Below are positions 24,416-33,731 of a stretch of DNA of 59,638 bases, in pieces. The stretch is from an uncultured Colwellia sp. (GTDB taxonomy: Bacteria > Pseudomonadota > Gammaproteobacteria > Enterobacterales > Alteromonadaceae). The notes beneath the pieces are model-generated. The model was not told the DNA's origin and searched no databases. It saw only the letters and a program-made list of their open reading frames with translations. The position numbers were made by a program, and so were the translations under genes. The stretch lies in NCBI GenBank assembly GCA_913058405.1, contig CAJXRC010000005.1, forward strand, positions 1-59,638, read 5' to 3'. The stretch's first letter is position 1. Every line of letters starts with the position of its first letter.

Positions 24416-24492
24416 GGTGGCTATAGCTCAGTTGGTAGAGCCCCGGATTGTGATTCCGGTTGTCGAGGGTTCAAGTCCCTTTAGCCACCCCA
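24416..24492 (+). tRNA. hisR: tRNA-His (GTG)
   Basis: 77-base cloverleaf with the extra 5' G (G-1) typical of tRNA-His, D arm AGCTCAGTTGGTAGAGC, anticodon GTG within GGATTGTGATTCC, TTCAAGT in the T loop and an encoded CCA. The sequence is close to the E. coli hisR product. Confidence 0.97.
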
Positions 24493-24538: not shown

Positions 24539-24615
24539 CGGTGATTAGCGCAGCTTGGTAGCGCACTTGGTTTGGGTCCAAGGGGTCGCAAGTTCGAATC
24601 TTGCATCACCGACCA
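24539..24615 (+). tRNA. proM: tRNA-Pro (TGG)
   Basis: 77-base cloverleaf starting CGGTGATTAGCGCAGCTTGG, anticodon TGG within TGGTTTGGGTCCA, TTCGAAT T loop, acceptor CACCG and encoded CCA. It lies 46 bases after tRNA-His, as in the argX-hisR-leuT-proM cluster of other gammaproteobacteria, but argX and leuT are absent here. Confidence 0.97.
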
Positions 24616-24913
24616 CTTTCGAAATACATCCCTCCTTTGAATACACAATAAATTTCCAACCTATAAACTACTCCTGTACATATCCTGTTCTCAAGTAAAC
24701 CTAAAGCGATCACATTACTGACTTTCGTTTGAAATCATTCTTTCAACTTTAATCAAAGATCTTTCTGTTCAAAAAATAGAGTCAAATTCAATATTTCTCA
24801 TGCATAGCAACTTTTTCTCAGCATGGTTTATCCGTGTCGGTTTATTTTACAATTCAGCATACGAGCTATTTGTACATCAGTATAAATCATTGAATATATG
24901 CTATATTATGAAA

Positions 24914-24930
24914 TTGGCTTACTTCGTGCA
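24914..24930 (+). promoter_or_regulatory. sigma-54 promoter of the PEP-CTERM gene
   Basis: TTGGCTTACTTCGTGCA has the sigma-54 -24 GG (24916-24917) and -12 GC (24928-24929) separated by exactly ten bases. The expected start site is near 24941, leaving a leader of about 73 bases before the ATG at 25014. Twelve of 17 positions are shared with the site at 33289-33305. The leader also contains a direct repeat of GTGCAGTTT (24926 and 24949). The stretch 24616-24913 has no gene I can support. Confidence 0.72.
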
Positions 24931-25013: not shown

Positions 25014-25715
25014 ATGAAAATTAAGTGTATAAAAACTATATTACCAGTGATGTTTTTTTCAGTTTCGTGTTTTTTTAACGTAGCTAATGCTGGGCTTATC
25101 ACATTGGGCGATTCACTTTCTGGTGGGGGCGTTGATGGGTGGCAAGCTATTATGGTAATCAATGAAAATGATGCTTATACCAATTCATCAGGTGCTTCTG
25201 AACTTGTTACGGTCAATAGCTTTAATTTTACTGTCGGTAATAATCGTGGTCAGGTAACTCCTTTTGTCGTAAAAATTAATAACTCTGCAACCAATGATTT
25301 TACTATATTAGCAATTGGTGAAACACGATATTCAGGCACTGATTATTTTAGCACTGGTAACTTCAGTTTTGATTTTTCTACAATGTTGAGTCAGTTCACT
25401 TTAGCCGCAGGCGACATTATTGCTTCCGGCTTTCTTGATGCAGATGTGAATGGGAATAGCGCAGGTAGCGTCATACCATACAGAAGCGGAGATTCGCTGT
25501 TTCTTACTGGATCTTCAAACAATTCAGGATCGGGTGACTTAACTCAAGGAATTGGTCAAGCACCTACATTTGGTAATTCGACTTTTATTAACGGTCTCAA
25601 TCGTGATTATAGCTATAATATAACTGCTGATGTAGAAGCCGTGCCAGAACCATCTACACTTGCGATTTTTGCATTTGCAATGATTGGTTTACTATCACGT
25701 CGACTCAATAAATAG
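25014..25715 (+). CDS. PEP-CTERM sorting-domain protein
   Basis: Exported protein of unknown function, 233 aa, destined for exosortase processing. It has a signal peptide (about residues 1-26, ending NVANA), a Ser/Asn/Gly-rich beta-type mature region with several Asn-rich turns, and a C-terminal tripartite signal: VPEPSTLAIF, a hydrophobic helix and the basic SRRLNK. Ribosome site AAAGGAAT. No exosortase or exopolysaccharide genes lie in the window, so the partner machinery must be elsewhere. The sigma-54 promoter upstream fits the PrsK/PrsR-linked control known for PEP-CTERM systems. Confidence 0.9.
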   Translation: MKIKCIKTILPVMFFSVSCFFNVANAGLITLGDSLSGGGVDGWQAIMVINENDAYTNSSGASELVTVNSFNFTVGNNRGQVTPFVVKINNSATNDFTILAIGETRYSGTDYFSTGNFSFDFSTMLSQFTLAAGDIIASGFLDADVNGNSAGSVIPYRSGDSLFLTGSSNNSGSGDLTQGIGQAPTFGNSTFINGLNRDYSYNITADVEAVPEPSTLAIFAFAMIGLLSRRLNK

Positions 25716-25738: not shown

Positions 25739-25769
25739 AAACATCAATTGTAATGGTTGGTGTTTTTTT
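25739..25769 (+). terminator. rho-independent terminator after the PEP-CTERM gene
   Basis: AAACATCAA / TTGGTGTTT stem (one G-U pair), nine-base loop, then a run of T. It starts 23 bases after the stop codon. From here to 26182 I see no gene or clear signal. Confidence 0.75.
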
Positions 25770-33155: not shown

Positions 33156-33288
33156 CACCCAGTTTACATTAATGTTCTGCTATAAAATAAGTGATTGATC
33201 AGTTAAAAATGTCAGATTAATTTACAGTTAATTATTTATTGGTTAGCTGAATTATTTTATCGTACTGAAATAGTTGACTATTATTAAC

Positions 33289-33305
33289 TTGGCGCGTTTC
33301 GTGCT
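33289..33305 (+). promoter_or_regulatory. sigma-54 promoter upstream of the DUF2375 gene
   Basis: TTGGCGCGTTTCGTGCT has -24 GG (33291-33292) and -12 GC (33303-33304) spaced by ten bases. It shares TTGGC and TTCGTGC with the PEP-CTERM gene promoter at 24914. The start site would be near 33316, giving a leader of almost 200 bases before the ATG at 33513. I found no small gene in that leader. Confidence 0.68.
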
Positions 33306-33512
33306 ATTTTTTTGCCGAACTACGAATATAATAGTATCTGAGCTCTTAAAGCAGTAAAGGTAATGGTTAGTTTTTTTGTTCTTATTATTAAGAAACATTA
33401 AGAACTATGGACTACTATTGATTTAGATCCACACAAAAAAATCGTTCATACGGGATAATACATGACCGATTTCCTAAGTAAATTTAATATGGAATAACTA
33501 AAAGAGTATATT

Positions 33513-33731
33513 ATGGAGCAAGATTTAATCCAAGTAACCATCATTTATTACCAAGTAGAATCACTTGAATTACTACATGAAGTGAAATCATTTCCAAAAA
33601 ATCACCACGGAAGAGTTGTTTTACCTGCAGAGTTTAAAAAGGGTAAATCAATTATTGCTGTGTGTGAGGGTGAAATTACCATTTTAAATAAAGTAGGTGA
33701 TCGTATTTTATCTGTTGGTAAAGTCGCATAA
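33513..33731 (+). CDS. TIGR02922/DUF2375 family small protein
   Basis: 72-residue soluble protein: MEQDLIQVTIIYYQVESLEL, then a central FPKNHHGRVVLPAEFKKGKSIIAVCEG with strand-rich content resembling a swapped-hairpin (AbrB-like GRVVLPAEFK) element. I recognise it as the small family known from Colwellia and Shewanella, one member of which was noted to share an upstream regulatory site with PEP-CTERM genes. The function is unknown; a transcription or assembly factor is one possibility. The ribosome site is weak. The sigma-54 site at 33289 supports the regulon link. An imperfect hairpin at 33766-33800 may terminate it. Confidence 0.8.
   Translation: MEQDLIQVTIIYYQVESLELLHEVKSFPKNHHGRVVLPAEFKKGKSIIAVCEGEITILNKVGDRILSVGKVA

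Follow-up and report, generated by a model that had tools for sequence, protein, structure and literature searches.

Why would a gene for a small DUF2375 protein be preceded by a promoter resembling that of a PEP-CTERM gene? The question arises in a stretch of 59,638 nucleotides (here called the window, meaning the whole of the DNA analysed) from the genome of an uncultured Colwellia sp. (G000; 4,984,870 bases, 422 contigs, 99.85% complete). A first-pass annotation had found the pattern TTGGC-N4-TTCGTGC twice in it, read both sites as -24/-12 promoters and proposed that the two downstream genes belong to one exosortase-linked regulon. Is the likeness a regulatory tie, an accident or a trace of a gene that once stood there? 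Comparisons were made with a family sample of 118 genomes and a same-genus (Colwellia) sample of 39, in which species distances and the order of splits were judged from DUF2375 identity. The relatives that matter most are C. psychrerythraea ND2E (G129), C. demingiae (G120), a more distant species, G128, and G126, which we take to be a C. psychrerythraea 34H-like genome. The features of the window on which the answer depends are these:

24835 to 24851, forward strand: motif 1 on the PEP-CTERM side, a predicted PrsR activator box, TGTCGGTTTATTTTACA, from pattern search
24913 to 24929, forward strand: motif 2 on the PEP-CTERM side, a predicted sigma-54 -24/-12 promoter, ATTGGCTTACTTCGTGC, from pattern search
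25014 to 25715, forward strand: gene for a PEP-CTERM protein of 233 aa with the tail VPEPSTLAIFAFAMIGLLSRRLNK (PF07589, 25.4 bits, cut-off 20.7)
25740 to 25768, forward strand: predicted intrinsic terminator behind the PEP-CTERM gene, folding at -12.2 kcal/mol (z -5.3)
33210 to 33226, forward strand: motif 1 on the DUF2375 side, a predicted activator box, TGTCAGATTAATTTACA, from pattern search
33288 to 33304, forward strand: motif 2 on the DUF2375 side, a predicted sigma-54 -24/-12 promoter, CTTGGCGCGTTTCGTGC, from pattern search
33305 to 33377, forward strand: leader, a proposed deletion scar, which in G126 aligns to the stop-codon and 3' regions of PEP-CTERM genes
33348 to 33377, forward strand: proposed decayed terminator, from alignment to G126
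33454 to 33459, forward strand: GATAAT, candidate -10 element of a promoter of DUF2375's own, from ortholog alignment
33513 to 33731, forward strand: DUF2375 / TIGR02922 gene, 72 aa (PF09558, 56.5 bits; TIGR02922, 123.6 bits, cut-off 64.95)

How much does the shared string itself say? Both copies, TTGGCTTACTTCGTGC at 24914-24929 and TTGGCGCGTTTCGTGC at 33289-33304 on the forward strand, were recovered by pattern search with the exact GG-N10-GC spacing reported for them, although the first ends at 24929, one base before the annotated 24930. Shuffled windows held a mean of 0.02 matches and none of 100 shuffles reached two or more. Scaled to 4.98 Mb this rate gives about 1.7 expected exact matches; the genome has two, both in the window, and the reversed control has none. 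A genome-wide count of two is not unusual by itself. The unusual part is that both fall inside one 60-kb window, upstream of a PEP-CTERM and a DUF2375 gene, which had been called unlinked, a loose wording for genes of one contig separated by 8 kb. If two mismatches are tolerated, 3 matches appear in the window where 4.29 are expected, and the genome gives 386 sites for the pattern and 285 for its reverse; the string is therefore little above background. The 27 sites with one mismatch were examined and 2 of them have an activator box upstream; the orthologous DUF2375-side promoters of G126 and ND2E read TTTGTGC, the C of TTCGTGC being seen among these three genomes only in the window. On these two grounds the idea that identity beyond the sigma-54 consensus marks a regulon was given up, and the genome-wide enrichment predicted for the string did not appear. 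Could a recent common origin of the two promoters explain the match? When whole elements were compared, the 33289 promoter was closest (orthologs aside) to a PEP-CTERM promoter on contig C94 and the 24914 promoter was absent from its ten closest; together with the lack of the C in G126 and ND2E, this led to the rejection of a recent common origin.

What the two sites do have in common, beyond what was first annotated, is a second feature: TGTC-N7-TTTACA, at 24835 and 33210, lies ahead of the 17-nt -24/-12 box at both, the two elements starting exactly 78 nt apart and leaving a spacer of 61 nt in each case. Haft et al. 2006 (PMC1569441) describe, for PEP-CTERM genes of proteobacteria, an upstream site in two parts, in which motif 1 is 17 nt long and ends in TTTACA, motif 2 is 17 nt long and fits sigma-54, the spacer between them averages 62.8 nt (range 32-92 nt), the distance from promoter to start codon averages 71 nt (SD 38.5, maximum 221) and PrsR is proposed as the activator. 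The sites found here have the same TTTACA-ending 17-nt motif 1 and sigma-54 motif 2, with 61 nt between them against the published mean of 62.8, and the genome encodes PrsK and PrsR. Every trait of the element is present at 24914, including the position upstream of the PEP-CTERM gene at 25014-25715, which NCBIfam TIGR02595 also recognises (21.2 bits, cut-off 16). At 33289 all but one are present; that site differs from the element as described in PMC1569441 in that the next gene is DUF2375 and not a PEP-CTERM gene. The prsK and prsR genes are adjacent on contig C80 and their products score well above cut-off (TIGR02916, 883.6 bits for 300; TIGR02915, 781.8 bits for 502.6), and an exosortase is present in the genome. 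Two suggestions of the first-pass annotation, to look for PrsK/PrsR and for conserved activator sites upstream, were thus borne out, and its reading of both sites as -24/-12 promoters agrees with the sequence, which predicts the PrsR/sigma-54 PEP-CTERM type at each. The promoter class is correct yet known since 2006 (PMC1569441); beside that paper, nothing joining PEP-CTERM, Colwellia and a promoter was found among the open-access papers searched. As a separate observation, genes for tRNA-His and tRNA-Pro lie at 24417-24492 and 24539-24615 of the window, and about 220 nt separate the end of the latter from motif 1 on the PEP-CTERM side.

Is the element a good marker of PEP-CTERM genes in this organism? 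Written as TGTC-N3-W4-TTTACA, motif 1 is found at 19 places in the genome, where composition predicts about 2.5 and the reversed control gives 3, and a strict GG-N10-GC follows at 17 of the 19, 76-79 nt away in 13, 88 nt in three and 97 nt in one. The exceptions are a site on contig C57, with GG-N10-GT, and one on C238, with no GG-N10-GC at such a distance. The distances form classes about one DNA turn apart, 88 nt at L088, L095 and L103 and 97 nt at L098. Downstream of the 19 sites stand 14 PEP-CTERM genes, one DUF2375 gene, one OmpR-type regulator (C66) and one contig end (C78); the other two sites are those on C238 and C138, where the gene is cut by the contig end and is probably a PEP-CTERM gene too. 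The genome has 19 PEP-CTERM matches above cut-off, 15 of which could be tested for a promoter (four, L034, L035, L036 and L046, lie too close to contig ends, and 2 matches below cut-off were likewise set aside); motif 1 precedes 14 of the 15 and strict motif 2 is also present in 13. Four relatives have 55 motif-1 sites, and among the 30 examined 24 lead into ORFs with a PEP tail (one gene accounting for two of the sites), 3 lead into ORFs whose tails are PEP-like and 3 are others. GG-N10-GC lies 60-93 nt past the motif 1 start in 25 of these 30 loci and at 97 nt in 2 more. The PEP-like tails (L201, L211, L226) read VPNPATL once and VPTPATL twice, which suggests variant sorting signals that may escape the PEP-CTERM model.

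Other features of the element and its surroundings are recorded here. A block like CAACTGGTTGAYGAGTT lies just 5' of motif 1 at L093, L199, L221 and L223 and at the G126 (L174) and G128 (L177) promoters. An OmpR-type winged-helix regulator gene (PF00486), in which no receiver domain was recognised at E 0.001, has both parts of the element, spaced by 88 nt, in G000 (C66; L180:1428-2240, reverse strand; L095) and also in C. demingiae (L227); its product is a candidate for a second tier of regulation in the PEP-CTERM regulon. The element also lies upstream of an immune inhibitor A-like M6 peptidase gene at L225 (G128:C43), whose ORF runs off the locus. What is presumably sequencing-adapter sequence was left at some G000 contig ends (L092 start, C138/C222, C80); this leftover translates to the false tails VYKRQ and SYTHLTLPTKR, and C138 and C222 probably carry two halves of one PEP-CTERM gene.

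How widely, then, does DUF2375 carry this promoter? The window protein lies above both family cut-offs. The TIGR02922 family comment remarks that one C. psychrerythraea member has a PEP-CTERM cis site. No paper on DUF2375 or TIGR02922 was found among the open-access papers searched, and a comparison with solved structures returned 2 matches, the best at E 1.6, which is not informative. TIGR02922 occurs in 38 of the 118 family-sample genomes with 67 matches, and the two-part element is upstream of one, the window's; it was not found at the other 66 (2 of the 67 having less than 460 nt upstream), and a general tie between DUF2375 and the element was rejected on this count. Within the genus, where 35 of 39 genomes have a relative of the window protein, the element is present at 3 of 30 DUF2375 loci, those of G000 and G126 with strict motif 1 and that of ND2E with motif 1 decayed to TTAACA, and these three are the most alike in DUF2375. 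No sigma-54 promoter was found before the DUF2375 orthologs of C. demingiae and G128. A promoter of the gene's own may lie closer: the GATAAT at 33454, preceded by a TG that is conserved in part, aligns also in C. demingiae and G128, while ND2E has AATAAT at this position and G124 and G146 diverge more. A scan for consensus promoters did not report GATAAT at 33454, and its role as a -10 element is proposed from the alignment.

If DUF2375 as a family has no such promoter, where did this one come from? Gene order gives a first hint. In G000 and G126 the order is phosphodiesterase, AraC, SnoaL, promoter, DUF2375, LysR, DsdA, and ND2E has about 5.5 kb extra between SnoaL and the promoter. In C. 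demingiae it is phosphodiesterase, the 3' end of a PEP-CTERM gene, DUF2375, LysR, DsdA; at this same place the remnant consists of VPEPSTLAIFALGILGFASRRFEKPS, a stop codon and a terminator, without the 5' part, and neither motif 1 nor motif 2 was found at the C. demingiae DUF2375 locus. In G128 a PEP-CTERM gene is intact and lies 1.6 kb before DUF2375; its promoter is a looser element (TGTCAAGTTGCTTTACA, 78 nt, TATGGTATATATTTTGC), and a gene of the uracil-DNA-glycosylase family stands between the two. Among the loci examined, none has an intact PEP-CTERM gene directly adjoining DUF2375. Because promoter, tail and intact gene are kept in different groups, a PEP-CTERM gene appears to have stood here once and to have been lost in different ways.

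The terminators add to this. The type at 25740-25768 is common to several PEP-CTERM genes of these species. A pattern drawn from the C. demingiae remnant, searched with up to 3 mismatches in 5 genomes, gave 14 matches in four of them (none in G128) and none in the reversed controls. All 14 end a PEP-CTERM frame, one being the remnant itself (13 tails were read directly and L190 was assigned through the overlapping ORF end of L216). In G126 the stretch between promoter and DUF2375 holds a hairpin with a T-run (fold -14.9 kcal/mol, z -6.4) that resembles these terminators; it is five bases off the search pattern, is not among the 14 matches and was found by position. The best score of the G126 leader against PEP-CTERM 3' ends was reached by none of 500 shuffles, and the genes that share the terminator were its best partners. 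The likeness of the window leader to such 3' ends is weak: its score against the C. demingiae remnant was reached by 2 of 1000 shuffles, and that against the best of all PEP-CTERM 3'-end targets by 33 of 500. The likeness of the ND2E leader to PEP-CTERM 3' ends was not significant (58 of 1000 for the C. demingiae remnant, 109 of 500 for the best target). For the window and ND2E the reading as a scar is adopted because their leaders align to that of G126. Most of the length of all three leaders can be aligned, ND2E having gaps, and this suggests one shared deletion. At 33348-33377 the window folds at -3.8 kcal/mol (z 0.3) and the ND2E counterpart at -2.4 kcal/mol (z 0.1), neither better than shuffles. 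The terminator fold seems lost in both, so that read-through into DUF2375 would be possible.

The account that best fits these observations is that both sites are PrsR/sigma-54 PEP-CTERM promoters and that the one at 33289 was probably left behind by a lost PEP-CTERM gene, its terminator having decayed in this genome and in ND2E. The predicted binding site of PrsR is TGTC-N7-TTTACA, from which it would activate RpoN polymerase at GG-N10-GC. The 24914 promoter would drive its own PEP-CTERM gene and the 33289 promoter, with a transcript start predicted at about 33316, would at first have driven another, upstream of DUF2375. The frame of that second gene would have been deleted once, in the common ancestor of G000, the 34H-like genome and ND2E, leaving the promoter, a short leader and the terminator. 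In G126, where the terminator is intact, transcripts would end before DUF2375; in G000 and ND2E PrsR-dependent transcripts may read through into it. There is a parallel in Aquincola tertiaricarbonis RN12 (PMC9850573), where pepA is an RpoN-dependent PEP-CTERM gene with a mapped start, a -24/-12 promoter and a predicted enhancer. A putative terminator sets it apart from the following gene, and disruption of rpoN1 'seemed' to leave transcription of that following gene unaffected. The likeness lies in a PEP-CTERM gene with such a promoter and a putative terminator before its neighbour; the difference is that the PEP-CTERM gene is still present in Aquincola (PMC9850573) and is missing from the DUF2375 locus here.

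Is the promoter still of use? Of its 95 columns, 70 are the same in G000, G126 and ND2E; for the noncoding DNA downstream the figure is 122 of 221 (Fisher p 0.0025; pairwise p 0.04, 0.11 and 0.0006), a test on three species whose columns are not independent. A looser test that adds 60 nt upstream of motif 1 gave p 0.0005; the stricter one is preferred because ND2E has extra DNA upstream. Since the promoter is better conserved than the noncoding DNA behind it, it would appear to keep some use. This is a ground on which DUF2375 could be seen as truly belonging to the PrsR/RpoN regulon, with a promoter kept for useful co-expression with PEP-CTERM proteins, which is the view of the first-pass annotation and of the NCBIfam remark; two of the three species do have the full element with correct spacing, the third showing a one-base decay of motif 1. 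Exosortases above cut-off are also more frequent in DUF2375 carriers (35 of 38) than in non-carriers (57 of 80; Fisher p 0.01, kinship ignored), a weak association confounded by relatedness. Against membership speak the terminator that stands intact in G126 between the promoter and DUF2375, the single element among 67 TIGR02922 matches (two with a short upstream stretch), the orthologs of C. demingiae and G128 without it, and a promoter-to-start distance of 208 nt, for which PMC1569441 gives a mean of 71 (SD 38.5, maximum 221). Membership in this sense is rather unlikely. Slightly less doubtful, and still tentative, is a capture in progress, in which the promoter is under selection and decay of the terminator hands it to DUF2375 in two of three lineages, not in 34H.

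Might the unit instead be a gene in its own right? Promoter, leader and terminator could form a gene for a small RNA some 60-75 nt long, controlled by PrsR/sigma-54 and derived from a PEP-CTERM transcription unit; the strong G126 terminator lies within about 80 nt of the promoter, and its stem still pairs despite base differences from the PEP-CTERM family terminator. Yet the terminator has decayed in two of three species and the leader is no better conserved than the remaining upstream region (48 of 88 columns against 74 of 133), which makes a small RNA improbable. That two unrelated GG-N10-GC sites match by chance would suit the genome-wide count, two exact matches being seen for about 1.7 expected by composition; but motif 1 sits exactly 78 nt upstream of both, with 0.03 motif 1 expected per window and a probability of 0.001 that TGG-N10-GC falls at any one chosen offset. 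Chance is ruled out by the activator box and the spacing, the probability left to it being negligible. The leftover promoter of a lost PEP-CTERM gene is thus the reading retained.

What is new is the origin of the DUF2375-side promoter, not its type. The claim that DUF2375 is a gene of an exosortase-linked regulon is weakened, with the element at one of 67 matches and the promoter apparently left over from a lost PEP-CTERM gene; a leftover promoter need not mean that DUF2375 works with the PEP-CTERM system. As for DUF2375 in the regulon, the promoter type stands, membership gives way largely to a deletion scar, and a later capture is possible.

For the family, this offers a simple historical account of the PEP-CTERM site that, according to a database remark, one DUF2375 gene in the C. 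psychrerythraea group bears: the cis site is read here as the leftover of an adjoining PEP-CTERM gene. It also advises caution, as a promoter can outlive its gene and function is not assignable by a shared promoter alone. If read-through is true, a sigma-54 promoter would have passed to a neighbour through deletion and terminator decay; if capture is true, DUF2375 would be joining the exosortase regulon in the two lineages with a decayed terminator, and not in 34H.
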